From: a bacterium
Lineage (GTDB): Bacteria > Bdellovibrionota_C > UBA2361 > RFPC01
DNA: 64,000 nucleotides
Reading direction: 5' to 3'
Assembly (NCBI GenBank): GCA_030431715.1
Contig: JAUIIO010000002.1
Location: 62,001 to 126,000 of the forward strand
Shown here: piece after piece, positions 20,937 to 28,509 of the stretch
How positions within the stretch are numbered: position 1 is the stretch's first letter
How the letters are laid out: each line of letters starts with the position of its first letter
Notes under the pieces: generated by a model
What the model saw: the letters and a program-made list of their open reading frames with translations, nothing else
Database searches by the model: none
What the model was told of the DNA's origin: nothing
Position numbers and translations under genes: made by a program

Positions 20937-22757
20937 ATGCGGTATCATAAACTTTCTAATCCTCAAAACTTTTTTTGCTCGCTTACACTCGCTGCTAGCC
21001 TCATCCTTTTTTCGCCTTATAGCGCTCTCTCTCAAAAACGTCCGGACGGGCTCAAGCTCAGAAGTGCTGAAATAGATGCGGCTCTTAATGCCGCTGAGAT
21101 TCTGGAAAGCGAAGAACCTCCCACCGTCAACACACGACGAAGAAGACTCACTGGAAGAAGGATTTCAAAACGATCAAAACGCTTACGTAAGATGCTTGGG
21201 AGAAAAGGAAGAAAGTTTTCCCGTGAATATCCGTCCATTGATGGATCAAACAACAATCTTCAACATGCAACTTGGGGAAAAGCGTTTACTCCATTTAAGA
21301 GACTGGCTCAGGCAACATATGCTGACGGCATCTCTGCAATGAATGACTCAGAATTGCCATCTCCCCGAGAAATTAGCAATCTGTGTTTCGATCAATCTGA
21401 TGACAATCCAAATCACTATAGCGCCACTGACTTTCTCTGGCAGTGGGGACAATTTTTAGACCACGACATTACCCTAACCCCGGTGCTTGAGCCTGCGGAG
21501 ACAGCAAAGATTGCTATACCATCGGGAGATATGTTTTTTGACCCATTTGCTACCGGCGCAAAAGAGATGGGATTCTCTCGCTCCGCGCATGTACTGGTGG
21601 GTGGTGTGAGACAACAGATGAATGCCATTACGGCATTTGTTGATGCTTCACAAGTATATGGCTCTGACAGGCACAGACAACTAGAGCTTCGTACGCTCGA
21701 TGGTACCGGAAGGCTTAAGGAAAGCGCTGGCCGGCTCCTTCCGTTTAACACCAATCTTATCGAGAATGATAACCCTGGAGATGATCTCGACCCCACATTT
21801 TTCTTGGCAGGTGATATCCGTGCAAATGAGCAAGTAGGTCTTACCACCATGCATGTCCTATTTGTCAGAGAACATAATTTCTGGGCTGACTACCTTGCAC
21901 AAGCGTTTCCTAGAGCTGACGGAGAGCGTATCTATCAGATGGCTCGAGGGATTGTTGCAGGAGAGATGCAGGCAATCACCTACAATGAATACCTTCCTTT
22001 TCTCCTCGGGCAAGATGCTATCCCCCCATATCAGGGATATGACCGCAATGTGGACCCATCGATCTCAAATGAGTTTGCTACCGCCGCTTATCGCGTTGGC
22101 CATACAATGCTTTCATCATTTATTCCGCGTTTGAATGCCAATCAGCAAATAGTGGCGGAAGGTCACCTCCTCCTCCGAGATGCCTTCTTTAAACCAGAAC
22201 GGCTGATAAATGAGGGCGGCATAGAACCTGTCCTTCGTGGATTGGCCTCTCGCCGCTCTCAATCAATTGACAATAAACTCGTTGATGATATCAGAAACTT
22301 TCTATTCGGCCCTCCGGGTGCAGGCGGATTTGATCTTGCATCGCTCAATATCCAACGAGGACGTGATCACGGACTCCCCTCCTACAACGATGTGCGCAGA
22401 GCCATGGGGCTTACTCCTGCTAGCTCATTTAGTGACATTACATCAAACCCTGAGGTCGCCTCTGGCTTAAGCTCAGTATATAACTCAATTGAAGATGTTG
22501 AACTCTGGGTGGGAGGACTTCACGAAGATCATGTAGATGGGGCTATGGTAGGAGAAACGTTCCGAGCCATTCTCCTTGATCAATTTGTCCGCCTTCGTGA
22601 CGGAGATAGATTTTGGTATGAACGGCATCTTCCTGGAAGACTGCGTAATATGGTTTCAAAACAAACACTCTCAAAAGTCATTCGAAGAAACACATCTATT
22701 AAAAAGCAAGAGATACAAGCAAATGTTTTCAAGCTACGTGCGATCACCCCGCCATAA
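20937..22757 (+). CDS. Secreted animal-type haem peroxidase
   Basis: A 606-residue protein of the peroxidase-cyclooxygenase (animal haem peroxidase) superfamily. A signal peptide spans about 1-31 (LAASLILFSPYSALS). Distal site QWGQFLDHDITLTP holds the distal His and the Ca-binding Asp; RVGHTMLSSFIPRL holds the proximal haem-ligand His with the conserved Arg/Asn surroundings; IQRGRDHGLPSYNDVR is the family signature. The N-terminal 40 residues after cleavage are very basic (RRRRLTGRRISKRSKRLRK), which could bind nucleic acid or the cell surface. No extra binding domains follow. Such enzymes use hydrogen peroxide to oxidise halides or phenolics outside the cytoplasm; the substrate is not predictable. 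It is monocistronic by position. Confidence 0.9.
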   Translation: MRYHKLSNPQNFFCSLTLAASLILFSPYSALSQKRPDGLKLRSAEIDAALNAAEILESEEPPTVNTRRRRLTGRRISKRSKRLRKMLGRKGRKFSREYPSIDGSNNNLQHATWGKAFTPFKRLAQATYADGISAMNDSELPSPREISNLCFDQSDDNPNHYSATDFLWQWGQFLDHDITLTPVLEPAETAKIAIPSGDMFFDPFATGAKEMGFSRSAHVLVGGVRQQMNAITAFVDASQVYGSDRHRQLELRTLDGTGRLKESAGRLLPFNTNLIENDNPGDDLDPTFFLAGDIRANEQVGLTTMHVLFVREHNFWADYLAQAFPRADGERIYQMARGIVAGEMQAITYNEYLPFLLGQDAIPPYQGYDRNVDPSISNEFATAAYRVGHTMLSSFIPRLNANQQIVAEGHLLLRDAFFKPERLINEGGIEPVLRGLASRRSQSIDNKLVDDIRNFLFGPPGAGGFDLASLNIQRGRDHGLPSYNDVRRAMGLTPASSFSDITSNPEVASGLSSVYNSIEDVELWVGGLHEDHVDGAMVGETFRAILLDQFVRLRDGDRFWYERHLPGRLRNMVSKQTLSKVIRRNTSIKKQEIQANVFKLRAITPP

Positions 22758-22845
22758 GCCGTAGTTCGCCCCCCTTGCCCTACAGAGACAGAGCTCATAC
22801 CAGACTGGCGATTGCTTGCGAGATATTCTAGTCTTTTATACTGGA

Positions 22846-22925
22846 GGACATTGAAAAATGTCCGTAAGTCCCCCGGAGGGACAATAAATACTGCCCGTAG
22901 GAAACTGCAAAAGCGATCAGCTTTT
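22846..22925 (+). ncRNA. Candidate structured leader of arsS: three successive hairpins
   Basis: Ahead of arsS three perfect hairpins follow each other: GGACATT (22846-22852) with AATGTCC around a GAAA (GNRA) tetraloop; GTCCC (22868-22872) with GGGAC (22878-22882); AAAAGC (22909-22914) with GCTTTT (22920-22925). The CCGGAGG run recurs at 22873 and 22927. A leader or riboswitch-like element is plausible, but I recognise no known class, and the reading frame of arsS is open through it. Confidence 0.4.
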
Positions 22926-23012
22926 ACCGGAGGAAGTGGCAAAGAACTGGTTGATTGCCATAACTCTTCGTCAGCATCTGAACGGGGCATCTTGAATGAC
23001 GGACAGTATAAT

Positions 23013-23987
23013 ATGACGGATACATCTCCTCAAAGAGACTTTCTAAAAACTCTCACCGAGCATCACTGCGATCTTAAGCGTACGACACCATCTACCTTAC
23101 AGATCAACGTGGGAAAATACTGCAATCAAGCGTGTCTTCACTGTCACGTTGAAGCGGGCCCCAAACGTACAGAGAAAATGTCTCATGACACGGCATCAAA
23201 AATAATAGCACTCCTTCACAAGACCCCATCAATCCAAACGGTTGACATTACTGGTGGAGCGCCAGAGTTACATGCTGAATTCAAGTATCTTGTCAAAGAA
23301 GCTCATGCAGCAGGCAAAGAGATTATCGATCGCTGTAACTTGACAGTGTTTTTTGAAGCGAACCAAGAAGAGACCCCTCGCTTCTTAGCAGATCATGGTG
23401 TTCGCGTTATTGCTTCACTTCCATGTTATTCAAAAGAAAATGTCGAGAAGCAGCGAGGTGGCGGTGTTTTTGGAAAAAGTATCAAAGCTCTTCAAATCCT
23501 AAACGATCTCGGTTACGCACGCAAAGGTTCGGGGCTTACACTCGACCTCGTTTTTAATCCTCTTGGGGCATCACTTCCTCCGAATCAATCTTCACTTGAG
23601 CACGACTACAAGATAAGACTCAGAGAAGATTTCCGGATAGAGTTCAATCAACTTCTAACCATAACGAACATGCCAATCAAACGCTTTTTACACGATCTCC
23701 AAAAGCAAAATCGATATGAGGAATATATGAATCTTCTCGTGCAAAGCTTTAATCCAGGAGCCGTAAGTCAGCTGATGTGTCGAGATACCATCTCTATTGG
23801 CTGGGACGGTAAACTGTATGACTGCGATTTTAATCAGATGCTTGATATCCCTATGAACTGGAAGTTACGAACCATCCATGATATAGACTCCTTTGATGAG
23901 TTGGCTTCAGGAGATATCGCTTTCGGGGACCACTGCTATGGCTGTACCGCGGGCTCTGGTAGCTCCTGTACTGGAGCATTAACATGA
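23013..23987 (+). CDS. arsS: ArsS-type radical SAM enzyme (arsenosugar biosynthesis family)
   Basis: A 324-residue radical SAM protein. The iron-sulfur motif CxxxCxxC is C37-C41-C44 in the run KYCNQACLHCHVEAGPKR, followed by DITGGAPEL (the 'GGE'-like SAM motif). CRDTISIGWDGKLYDCDFN and the C-terminal HCYGCTAGSGSSCTG supply extra cysteines typical of the ArsS/DUF3641 family, in which the enzyme attaches the 5'-deoxyadenosyl group of SAM to methylated arsenic. The start is placed at 23013; the frame continues open 67 codons upstream through hairpins without family similarity. The stop is 13 bases ahead of the mtnP start. No arsM methyltransferase is visible, so the substrate is inferred from family only. 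Confidence 0.85.
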   Translation: MTDTSPQRDFLKTLTEHHCDLKRTTPSTLQINVGKYCNQACLHCHVEAGPKRTEKMSHDTASKIIALLHKTPSIQTVDITGGAPELHAEFKYLVKEAHAAGKEIIDRCNLTVFFEANQEETPRFLADHGVRVIASLPCYSKENVEKQRGGGVFGKSIKALQILNDLGYARKGSGLTLDLVFNPLGASLPPNQSSLEHDYKIRLREDFRIEFNQLLTITNMPIKRFLHDLQKQNRYEEYMNLLVQSFNPGAVSQLMCRDTISIGWDGKLYDCDFNQMLDIPMNWKLRTIHDIDSFDELASGDIAFGDHCYGCTAGSGSSCTGALT

Positions 23988-24000
23988 TGGGCAGGACAAT

Positions 24001-24846
24001 ATGACAAAAGTAGGAATTATTGGTGGAACTGGACTTTACGAGTTAGATGGCCTGAGCAACGTTCAAGAGCAAACTCCCGATACCCCATTTGGACCCCCAT
24101 CTTCACCAATCATTACAGCTGAGCTCGGAGATACACCTGTCGTATTTCTTGCAAGACACGGAAAGAGTCATGAACTCCTCCCATCTGAAGTGCCATACCG
24201 CGCTAATATCTATGCTCTTAAGCAGGCCGGCGCACGTTCGATACTTACGGTAAATGCCGTAGGTAGCTTACGAGAAGAGCTTGAGCCCGGAGATATTGTG
24301 TGTCCCAGACAATTTATTGACCTTACCAAAGGGATACGGGAACACACCTTTTTTGGCGCAGGGCTCAGTGCGCATATAAGCTCTGCAGACCCCGTATGTT
24401 CTGAGTTACACCAGACCTTACCCAAAGCTTCTTCACGAATTGGTATCACCGTAAAAAATGAAGCAACATACATATGTGTAGAAGGACCGAGGTTGGGCAC
24501 CAGAGCTGAGAGCCATATGCTACGCGGATTTGGTGGTGACATTGTTGGCATGACAGCTATTCCTGAGGTCTTCCTAGCACGCGAAGCAAGCCTTTGCTAC
24601 AGCAGCCTCTGTGTAGTGACTGATTATGATTGTTGGAAGGAAGGTCTTTCAACTGATACCTTTGATGTTCTTGAAAACTATAAAAAGAGCATGGATAAGG
24701 TAAAGCAGCTCCTCAGTGTTGTCATACAAGAGGGACTTGCTTTAAGAGATTGTGAATGCGCCAATGCGCTTGACAGGGCACTTCTTGGTGACCCCGGCTC
24801 ACACTCAGCCGAGCAACAGGAACTCCTCGCCTTTCTTCGCTCTTGA
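24001..24846 (+). CDS. mtnP: S-methyl-5'-thioadenosine phosphorylase
   Basis: A 281-residue member of nucleoside phosphorylase family 2. Phosphate site GGTGLYELDG (about 9-18), ARHGKSHELLPSEVPYRANIYA, VNAVGSL, EATYICVEGPRLGTRAE and VTDYDCW are all typical of MTA phosphorylases (MtnP/MTAP); the NDYD/TDYDCW end marks 6-aminopurine specificity. It cleaves 5'-methylthioadenosine to adenine and 5-methylthioribose-1-phosphate. Here it directly follows arsS, whose product is an arsenic-linked 5'-deoxyadenosine, so this enzyme may depurinate that nucleoside to an arsenosugar phosphate. That step is inference; ordinary MTA salvage is the default. No other methionine-salvage genes are nearby. Confidence 0.92.
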   Translation: MTKVGIIGGTGLYELDGLSNVQEQTPDTPFGPPSSPIITAELGDTPVVFLARHGKSHELLPSEVPYRANIYALKQAGARSILTVNAVGSLREELEPGDIVCPRQFIDLTKGIREHTFFGAGLSAHISSADPVCSELHQTLPKASSRIGITVKNEATYICVEGPRLGTRAESHMLRGFGGDIVGMTAIPEVFLAREASLCYSSLCVVTDYDCWKEGLSTDTFDVLENYKKSMDKVKQLLSVVIQEGLALRDCECANALDRALLGDPGSHSAEQQELLAFLRS

Positions 24847-24900
24847 ATTTGATTAGACAGCTATTCTCTGCGATGCTTGTAAAGTAGGAGAACTCAGATC

Positions 24901-25266
24901 ATGGCTTTTGTAGCAAATCATTTAGAACTCTCAACCAAGCAGGGACAAGACAGAGCGTGTATGCCTCTTACGACTCTTAAAGAGGAGCTCATGTCATCTG
25001 ACCCTCGCGTGTCTTCTCAGGCCTACAGCACTATGCTAGATCGGGTTACAAAAACTACAGAAGAGATCTTGAGCAAGGAGCCACTTGATGGTGGCAAGTT
25101 TATGGATCAAAGGCTTTCAGAGATCATTAAGGCTGCGAGAACAGTTCGTGACAACGCACATCCAACTGGCACTGTCGACTGGCAGAAGATGAACACTCAG
25201 ATTATCTCCCTAACATGTCATATTGCTAGCCTCCCCTACCATCACACCTGGCGTAATGTCTCATAG
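24901..25266 (+). CDS. Hypothetical small helical protein
   Basis: A 121-residue protein with no family I recognise. Predicted mostly helical (TTLKEELMSSDPRVSSQAYS, DRVTKTTEEILSKEP, DQRLSEIIKAARTVRDNAH), no signal or membrane segment. AGGAGAACTCAGATC lies upstream of ATG 24901 at a reasonable distance. It is 54 bases after mtnP and may be in its operon. The last eight codons run into a tandem 15-base repeat. Confidence 0.5.
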   Translation: MAFVANHLELSTKQGQDRACMPLTTLKEELMSSDPRVSSQAYSTMLDRVTKTTEEILSKEPLDGGKFMDQRLSEIIKAARTVRDNAHPTGTVDWQKMNTQIISLTCHIASLPYHHTWRNVS

Positions 25267-25280
25267 CGTAATGTCACATA
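25251..25280. repeat. Short tandem duplication (two 15-base units)
   Basis: GCGTAATGTC is followed by TCATA and then repeats as GCGTAATGTC ACATA. The duplication spans the stop codon of the hypothetical gene (the first copy is coding). Probably slippage. Confidence 0.6.
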
Positions 25281-25365
25281 AGAACATCCTCACGTTACAG
25301 AAGTGAGAAGCCTACACACCTAGACATACTAAGGAAACTGCCTCCAAGACAGCTCTTCCTCTTTC

Positions 25366-26241
25366 ATGCTATCCTGTGCGTCAGCGCTTATGACTACTCG
25401 CAATCAAACCATATCCGAGATTGGCAATCTTTACCGGAGTGTCCTTTTTGAATGTCAGCAGATCTCTCCAAAAGATTTTGATCATGCAATCTCTCTCTTT
25501 GAAAATACTGCACAAGAACTTCAGATACCCGGGCTTTCTTTTGCCGCAAAGAGAATGAAACATTTTCGCTCTTCAGGGATCTCAAGTATCAATATCGGCG
25601 GAACCATGGGCTCTGGAAAGTCTTCGCTCGGAGAACGTATAGCGAATGAACTTGGATTTCAGTTTCGAGATTCTGACAGCTTTCACTCTGATGCGAACAA
25701 GTCCAAGATGGCAAAGGGCCATCCTCTTAACGATAACGATCGGTTTAGCTTCTTAAAGGGCGTACAGGAATATCTGAGACATAGAAGTTGTTTAAGTACA
25801 TGCTCTGCGCTAACAGATCTTTACCGTGCCATTCTTGCCGGACAAGATGCAAGTTGCTTAAAGACGCCGACGCACCTTGCTCATACTTCACCTTGGAGTA
25901 TCGAGCAACCAAACTACGGCCTCTTGCAAGTCATGATCATTAAGCCTTATGAACAAGCTCTTGATGAACTCGACCACGCTAACTCCGGAGGAGCTCCAAG
26001 GATGCTTGACAACGAACAACACTTTATAACGGTTACGAGAAAGAGTGAGGAAGACGCTATACAAAGCGGTAAGACCCCCCTTCTGCGCAATCAATATGAC
26101 CTTTTTAATGCGCACCCTCCAATGCCATGGGATGCACTTCTACTTGAATCAGAAACTTTTCGAACGGATAACGGATACGAACTGGAGATTCTACTTGAAG
26201 ACGTTCGCAAACTTCCTTTCTCAGGAAGTAGCGTCAGTTAA
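25366..26241 (+). CDS. Gluconokinase-like P-loop kinase with N-terminal extension
   Basis: A 291-residue protein. After a 75-residue helical extension, residues about 75-160 match the gluconate kinase family: Walker A GGTMGSGKSSLG, then FRDSDSFHSDANKSKMAKGHPLNDNDRFSFL (in GntK 'DgDdfHp..N..KM..G.PLtD.DR.pwL') and TCSALTDLYRAIL ('sCSALkr.YRd.LR'). The second half (about 170-291) is unlike GntK and has lost the 'HF' and lid region, so the substrate may differ. The start may be ATG 25366 or ATG 25390; neither has a clear ribosome site. No gluconate pathway genes are nearby. Confidence 0.6.
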   Translation: MLSCASALMTTRNQTISEIGNLYRSVLFECQQISPKDFDHAISLFENTAQELQIPGLSFAAKRMKHFRSSGISSINIGGTMGSGKSSLGERIANELGFQFRDSDSFHSDANKSKMAKGHPLNDNDRFSFLKGVQEYLRHRSCLSTCSALTDLYRAILAGQDASCLKTPTHLAHTSPWSIEQPNYGLLQVMIIKPYEQALDELDHANSGGAPRMLDNEQHFITVTRKSEEDAIQSGKTPLLRNQYDLFNAHPPMPWDALLLESETFRTDNGYELEILLEDVRKLPFSGSSVS

Positions 26242-26331
26242 TTACAGATGCAACCTTAGAAAAGGTTATTGAAGTCCCCGCGTCTCCTCACTATGATCCT
26301 CGTGTATAGACCTTAAGGAGTGTTGCTTGAC

Positions 26332-26574
26332 ATGACATACGTAGTCGTCTCTCTTTTCATAATTATTGTGCTCATCTCTTCCTTTTCGAAGGCTCACACA
26401 CGAAAGCAAAAAGATATCCGAAGCAGATTCCTCATAAATGAGGATGAACCAACAGATGACGATATAAAAAGAGTCCTTGATGCAGGTCACAAGATCTATG
26501 CTATTAAACTTTATAGAACAAAACATGGCTGTGGCTTAAAGGAGGCGAAAGAAGCCGTGGAGAGGATTGGGTAG
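26332..26574 (+). CDS. Small membrane protein with L7/L12-like C-terminal motif
   Basis: An 80-residue protein. An N-terminal membrane helix (VVVSLFIIIVLISSF) is followed by a charged linker and a segment KIYAIKLYRTKHGCGLKEAKEAVERIG that matches the start of the ribosomal L7/L12 C-terminal fold ('...IK.vRe.tGLgLKEAKdlVe'). Proteins with a membrane helix plus this domain are common hypothetical proteins in Gram-negatives. ATG 26332 is 11 bases after AAGGAG at 26315-26320; a GTG at 26320 would overlap that box. A similar domain forms the N-terminus of the 690-residue protein at 36855. Function unknown. Confidence 0.65.
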   Translation: MTYVVVSLFIIIVLISSFSKAHTRKQKDIRSRFLINEDEPTDDDIKRVLDAGHKIYAIKLYRTKHGCGLKEAKEAVERIG

Positions 26575-28149: not shown

Positions 28150-28509
28150 GTGTCAGAACGTAAAATTGTTGCTCAAGAACTCGGTAAGCTTTTTTCTGTA
28201 CTCTCTAACCCCGATAGAATACGAATCATTGAGGAGCTCAGACGTGAAGAGCTCGATGTGCAGTCCCTTTCTGAGCTCTTAGAAATTTCACCTTCCCGTG
28301 TATCACAACACCTAGGGCAACTTCGCGCCATGCGCTTGGTGGAAGATGTTCGTGATGGCAAGCGTCACATATACCATCTTGTAAAAGAAGATGTTGCTGC
28401 ATGGATACTTGATGGTCTTCATTTCACAGAGATAGGACTTGTTGACACAAGTAATTTCAATAAAGCCGTTCGCAAGGCAAGAAAAATCTGGGAAACACGC
28501 GAAGATTAA
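28150..28509 (+). CDS. ArsR-family transcriptional regulator (no metal-site cysteines)
   Basis: A 119-residue winged-helix protein. KLFSVLSNPDRIRIIEELRREE is the family start, LSELLEISPSRVSQHLGQLRAMRLV the recognition helix-turn-helix, and VRDGKRHIYHLV the wing. The alpha3 metal box (ELCVCDL in arsenic sensors) is replaced by ELDVQSL; there is no cysteine anywhere, so thiol or metal-thiolate sensing is unlikely. Start is GTG 28150, chosen for length. It is convergent with the TolC-type gene (22 bases between stops) and close to an operator shared with the exporter operon, so it may control that operon. The signal is unknown. Confidence 0.85.
   Translation: MSERKIVAQELGKLFSVLSNPDRIRIIEELRREELDVQSLSELLEISPSRVSQHLGQLRAMRLVEDVRDGKRHIYHLVKEDVAAWILDGLHFTEIGLVDTSNFNKAVRKARKIWETRED

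Follow-up and report, generated by a model that had tools for sequence, protein, structure and literature searches.

The window, by which we mean the whole 64,000-nucleotide stretch of DNA analysed here, carries two genes on the same strand that lie 13 bases apart. The first, arsS (23013..23987, + strand), starts with the ATG at 23013, stops with a TGA ending at 23987 and encodes 324 amino acids. In a profile search, its product matched positions 2–303 of the 303-position TIGR04167 model, scoring 440.3 bits against a cut-off of 300, and both a Radical_SAM (PF04055) and a DUF3641 (PF12345) domain were recognized. The translation revealed an intact CX3CX2C motif, which reads CNQACLHC, and an intact C-terminal cysteine motif (CYGCTAGSGSSC). 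The predicted product is a radical SAM enzyme that would be expected to join 5'-deoxyadenosine to dimethylarsenite.

Variant forms of ArsS were seen in other genomes. One in-frame TGA is read through in 13 of the 18 Chloroflexota matches, fitting the selenoprotein form of ArsS, whereas the window copy has none. ArsS also occurs inside open frames of ~670–706 residues, twice the usual length, at locus L057 (590-2689) and in the matches of genomes G265, G649, G599, and G601, suggesting that these long frames are fusions.

The second gene, mtnP (24001..24846, + strand), encodes an MtnP-type phosphorylase of 281 amino acids, for which we propose a phosphate-dependent release of adenine from the product of ArsS. 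Its product scored 293.6 bits against TIGR01694 (cut-off 274.85) and 146.8 bits against PNP_UDP_1, and fell under the cut-offs of the finer NCBI MTA phosphorylase (MTAP) equivalogs, for example PRK08564 (294.1 against 382). The AlphaFold model of MtnP (mean pLDDT 86.1) matched solved MTA phosphorylases with a best Z of 37.7 and an rmsd of 1.8 over 279 aligned residues; the fold match to purine nucleoside phosphorylases (PNPs) was clearly weaker (Z ~26). Asp208, Asp210, Arg52, and His53 are conserved in the alignment, and we take the two aspartates to be the adenine-binding pair of MTA phosphorylase and Arg52/His53 to be its phosphate site. Judged from the model, MtnP would thus have the trimeric-PNP fold together with the adenine- and phosphate-contacting residues of MTA phosphorylase.

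The pocket differs from that of most MTAPs at two positions. The segment that reads GPxFSTRAES in most MTAPs, and in which human MTAP has its base-stacking Phe, reads GPRLGTRAES in the enzymes of the window and of Cupriavidus. Leu165 in the window MtnP replaces the usual Phe (human Phe177), and Asn85 replaces the usual Ser/Thr. We considered such residues as a signature of a link to ArsS and rejected them as too weak: Leu165 was found in 3/5 ArsS-linked and 3/22 other MTAPs, and Asn85 in the window enzyme alone among the five ArsS-linked ones. The position of human Val233 was left out of this comparison because the alignment there is unreliable.

The intergenic gap (23988..24000, + strand) contains an AGGA shortly 5' of the mtnP ATG, a possible ribosome-binding site. 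A simple scan detected no terminator-like site between the two genes, and its promoter-like and terminator-like matches across 22500-26500 were at chance level. The adjacency and the 13-base spacing given in a preliminary description of this DNA were therefore confirmed, both genes being full length and over their family cut-offs (TIGR04167 and TIGR01694).

On the same strand, 255 bases upstream of arsS, lies a gene for a 606-aa animal-type haem peroxidase (20937-22757; PF03098, 552 bits). The region 3' of mtnP (24901-26241) encodes a 121-aa protein that matched no family, followed by a 291-aa protein with a gluconokinase-like P-loop segment that scored below cut-off. An ArsR/SmtB-type gene at 28150-28509 was examined as a candidate arsenic regulator and set aside: with no cysteine, its product does not stand out as an arsenic sensor, and the gene precedes an oppositely directed TolC-type gene.

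Arsenic and MTA genes elsewhere in the genome

The genome to which the window belongs comprises 3.97 Mb in 56 contigs and is 94.6% complete. The preliminary description had noted that no arsM is visible at the locus and that the arsenic source must lie elsewhere, and this was borne out: a single arsM over the NF008823 cut-off was found on contig C16 (67253-68056, 341 bits), arsS being on contig C42. The encoded ArsM has cysteines in the expected places. For TIGR04283, no match over cut-off was present in this 94.6% complete assembly. Nor did any protein reach the TIGR04282 cut-off of 134 bits; the best match, at 78 bits, was a 249-aa DUF2064-like protein encoded on contig C11. By its gene content, the window organism has the predicted enzymes of the first two known arsenosugar steps and a candidate for the third, without recognised genes for later ones.

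Such a gene set could also point in the opposite sense, with adenine being taken up or recycled from arsenic nucleosides as a form of detoxification and no downstream arsenosugar being made in the window organism. The missing over-cut-off matches to TIGR04283 and TIGR04282 fit this explanation, as does a genome from another family of the same phylum (G013, described below), in which TIGR04282 matches were below cut-off only. However, plasmid clusters hold mtnP together with the downstream genes, and the diverged DUF2064 protein is present in the window genome; we regard this explanation as very improbable.

The window mtnP was the only TIGR01694 match in its genome, and it must therefore also meet any need for the removal of MTA or 5'-deoxyadenosine. 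As the cell's only MTAP, this gene may be engaged in ordinary salvage, either alongside a function with arsS or in its place. This raises a housekeeping explanation, in which the cell relies on one MTA phosphorylase, which also disposes of the 5'-deoxyadenosine produced by radical SAM enzymes in general, and the proximity of its gene to arsS is accidental. Besides the sole match, which is over the MTAP cut-off, the location of MTAP on a different contig from arsS in most related arsS genomes speaks for it. We found no match to mtnA (TIGR00512) in the window genome; mtnA was present in 4 of the 17 genomes searched, and several of the mtnA-less relatives (13/17 genomes lacked it) retain an MTAP. 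Because MTAP without mtnA is common in the window phylum, the absence of mtnA is not discriminating and is no argument against a housekeeping function. We nevertheless consider chance placement of a housekeeping gene rather unlikely, on account of the comparative evidence that follows.

MTAP genes in other ArsS neighbourhoods

We compared 95 ArsS neighbourhoods, comprising 17 from the window phylum, 2 from the phylum of genome G050, 12 from named genomes, 17 from Chloroflexota, 41 from the Leptospira phylum, and 6 from plasmid genera. The source genomes numbered 45 for the window phylum (16 with ArsS), 400 for Chloroflexota, and 392 for the Leptospira phylum, and plasmids were represented by one per genus. 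An MTAP-type gene was present in five neighbourhoods: those of the window, G013 (locus L060), Cupriavidus sp. KK10, Burkholderia glumae BGR1, and Acinetobacter portensis JNE5. It was absent from the other 90, including 0/17 in Chloroflexota, 0/41 in the Leptospira phylum, and 0/12 in the named genomes, although neighbours may have been missed since most non-plasmid flanks reach no further than ~6 kb or the end of the contig, and at 11 of the 17 loci of the window phylum one or both sides are short by at least ~1.5 kb. The Acinetobacter mtnP lies ~6.5 kb from arsS and would escape a strict 6 kb limit. MTAP adjacency to arsS is thus rare, and the conservation across taxa that the preliminary description had proposed to look for was mostly wanting. 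Given that 90/95 neighbourhoods are without MTAP, most arsenosugar clusters manage without an adjacent one; these may depend on an MTAP encoded elsewhere in the cell's genome or on a different enzyme.

Among the neighbourhoods without MTAP, that of genome G684 (locus L160, 5852-7773) contains a PNP rather than an MTAP (PRK08202 score 322 bits, cut-off 218). The PNP gene begins inside or directly at the end of arsS, so that a phosphorylase of another type is also coupled to arsS. The remaining 89/95 neighbourhoods yielded no member of the phosphorylase superfamily at the sensitivity used. A tblastn search (E 1e-3) with E. coli MtnN and RihC revealed no homologue near arsS in the 95 neighbourhoods, a setting at which distant families are missed.

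Rare as it is, the proximity of MTAP to arsS exceeds chance. At one MTAP per 3.5 Mb, ~0.33 MTAP neighbours would be expected per 95 neighbourhoods, against 5 observed, or 4/94 without the window; the probability of at least four in the 94 is ~3e-4 under this simple model, in which neither common descent nor truncated flanks are taken into account. This excess argues against the housekeeping explanation, as does the gene order in the other genomes. In G013, the adjacency is reversed: mtnP, arsS, and arsM follow one another on the same strand, separated by 45 and 8 bases, the ArsM having its best match to NF008823 at 192.6 bits (under the cut-off of 263). In plasmids of three genera, mtnP lies in the arsS region. 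The Cupriavidus order is phosphate-transporter-like gene-arsM-AhpD-arsS-FAD oxidoreductase-VTT-TIGR04282-mtnP, in which mtnP overlaps or abuts its neighbour and the TIGR04282 protein scored 201.5 bits (cut-off 134). In B. glumae BGR1, mtnP-TIGR04283-TIGR04282-FAD oxidoreductase lie on one strand, with arsS 6 kb off. Acinetobacter portensis pJNE5-X3 carries arsS-VTT/FAD-DUF547-TIGR04283-TIGR04282-arsM-PiT in one run, followed by a convergent mtnP. In two of these three clusters, mtnP directly adjoins TIGR04282/TIGR04283 genes.

Co-occurrence in plasmids was evaluated in PLSDB, where arsS was found in 52 records and MTAP in 70 at 1e-30 and 72 at 1e-20. The MTAP list includes 49 of the 52 arsS records (47 from Burkholderia, with Cupriavidus and Acinetobacter); the 47 Burkholderia records nearly all have the same identity values. 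We therefore discarded a record-level Fisher value, for which these almost identical B. glumae records would each count as an independent case, and used the genus count of 3/6. By contrast, two Azospirillum plasmid MTAPs that we examined adjoin mtnA, and one Sphingomonas MTAP adjoins efflux genes. On the megaplasmid of Mycetohabitans rhizoxinica (locus L237, 3980-5484), the run of genes that includes mtnP also comprises nudK and genes for a fatty acid desaturase, HAD hydrolases, and an aminotransferase, a setting that looks biosynthetic rather than one of salvage.

In the phylogenetic tree, the window MtnP was sister to the enzyme of the Cupriavidus cluster (support 100/98, 51% identity), the closest relative found; that this relative sits in an arsenosugar cluster again counts against a housekeeping gene placed by chance. 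The B. glumae and Acinetobacter MTAPs formed a pair (99/98), and the G013 MTAP fell among ordinary MTAPs. A single specialised clade was therefore rejected as a description of the five ArsS-linked MTAPs, which do not form one group in the tree; the one-clade test gave p 0.10, which leaves a common origin neither established nor rejected. As the five do not group, MTAPs are likely to have joined the arsenosugar genes more than once, and repeated recruitment speaks for a function in these clusters.

We also considered that the phosphorylase might remove 5'-deoxyadenosine arising from uncoupled ArsS turnover and leave the arsenic product alone. The excerpted text of PMC8102628 describes cleavage by MtnP of 5'-deoxyadenosine, an inhibitor of radical SAM enzymes, and a clean-up role of this kind would account for the position of mtnP beside arsS. 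In B. glumae and Cupriavidus, however, mtnP adjoins TIGR04282/TIGR04283 genes, not arsS. Moreover, in a control drawn from 57 relatives and inspected by eye, 0/76 other radical SAM matches adjoined MTAP and 1/76 lay within 6 kb of one, compared with 2/18 adjoining ArsS copies (Fisher 0.035; 0.18 without the window). This count makes a general clean-up role for radical SAM enzymes less likely, being weakly significant and not significant without the window, and it weighs in the same direction against the housekeeping explanation. Clean-up of uncoupled turnover appears improbable to us.

A proposed route to arsenosugars

Arsenosugars are a main organic arsenic form in marine life. According to excerpts of PMC12159101 and PMC8552651, arsenite is methylated by ArsM, and the methylated arsenic then receives the 5'-deoxyadenosyl group through ArsS. 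In the excerpted part of a review (PMC10456119), the subsequent loss of adenine is drawn as an 'adenosyl nucleosidase' with no gene named. In searches of the open-licence PMC literature, we found no link between ArsS or arsenosugars and MTA phosphorylase, nor a gene assigned to the phosphorolytic removal of adenine. The excerpted text of PMC8102628 reports that Synechococcus elongatus MtnP cleaves 5'-deoxyadenosine in a strictly phosphate-dependent reaction to 5-deoxyribose-1-phosphate, from which it follows that the MtnP family can accommodate substrates that differ at their 5' end.

We propose, as a somewhat probable reading, that arsS-mtnP is a short operon for arsenosugar formation in which the phosphorylase strips adenine from the ArsS product. 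The distant arsM would supply dimethylarsenite, to which ArsS, by the activity known for it from the literature, would add the 5'-deoxyadenosyl group of SAM, giving 5'-deoxy-5'-dimethylarsinoyl-adenosine. The MTAP-type enzyme would then release adenine with phosphate and leave 5-deoxy-5-dimethylarsinoyl-ribose-1-phosphate. In the plasmid clusters, family resemblance suggests that this sugar-1-phosphate could be activated to a nucleotide sugar by the CofC/DUF2064-like TIGR04282 protein (TIGR04282 being related to the CofC guanylyltransferase), and that the TIGR04283 GT2 protein could then transfer the activated sugar. In the window genome, the product might be used by the diverged DUF2064 protein, or be dephosphorylated and exported. 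Formation of a sugar-1-phosphate by MtnP would explain why TIGR04282 adjoins mtnP in two plasmid clusters. In genome G050 (locus L074, 12812-14008), TIGR04282 and TIGR04283 are fused in one protein of 398 aa, which fits a nucleotidyltransferase-like protein and a transferase acting in sequence.

A broader proposal, which we advance more tentatively, is that MTAPs have been recruited repeatedly as the adenine-removing enzyme of arsenosugar synthesis, yielding 5-dimethylarsinoyl-5-deoxyribose-1-phosphate that passes to TIGR04282 and TIGR04283 via an activated arsenic-sugar nucleotide. The 90/95 neighbourhoods without MTAP are a strong counter-count to a fixed partnership. The functional link envisaged in the preliminary description thus gains from the mtnP-arsS-arsM order of G013, from the plasmid clusters of three genera, and from the Cupriavidus sister enzyme, and loses by the absence of MTAP from those 90; overall, we judge a functional link likelier than adjacency by chance, and the wider evidence turns what was speculation into a testable proposal. 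MTAP-type enzymes in arsenic-sugar clusters of unrelated bacteria point to a missing step in the making of arsenosugars. An MTAP within or beside complete clusters is a named candidate for adenine removal and predicts a sugar-1-phosphate intermediate, which would give the TIGR04282 and TIGR04283 proteins a chemical role.

Compared with known systems, arsS-mtnP brings known enzyme families together in a new arrangement; it is not a new kind of system. The window ArsS resembles TIGR04167 ArsS in spanning the whole model, in both cysteine motifs, and in its DUF3641 domain, but it lacks an adjoining arsM or glycosyltransferases and is followed by an MTAP. The window MtnP is likewise an MtnP/MTAP (TIGR01694; PDB codes: 4glf, 1v4n, 1cb0) in exceeding the cut-off, in its fold (Z 35-38), and in its retained adenine and phosphate residues; it differs in Leu165 and Asn85, in falling below the finer equivalogs, and in having arsS rather than mtnA as its neighbour. 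The mtnA expected with a methionine (MTA) salvage operon was not found in the window genome, an absence that does not discriminate. In the salvage described in the excerpted text of PMC8102628, S. elongatus MtnP also acts phosphate-dependently on a 5'-modified adenosine derived from SAM radical chemistry, but its substrate there is a byproduct and not an arsenic nucleoside. The canonical arsenosugar cluster differs in its extent, since the window has arsS and mtnP alone, with arsM on another contig and the glycosyltransferase families without an over-cut-off match. With the clusters of the type arsS-arsM-FAD/VTT-DUF547-TIGR04283-TIGR04282, such as that of pJNE5-X3, the window has arsS in common, and three such plasmid clusters also hold an MTAP.
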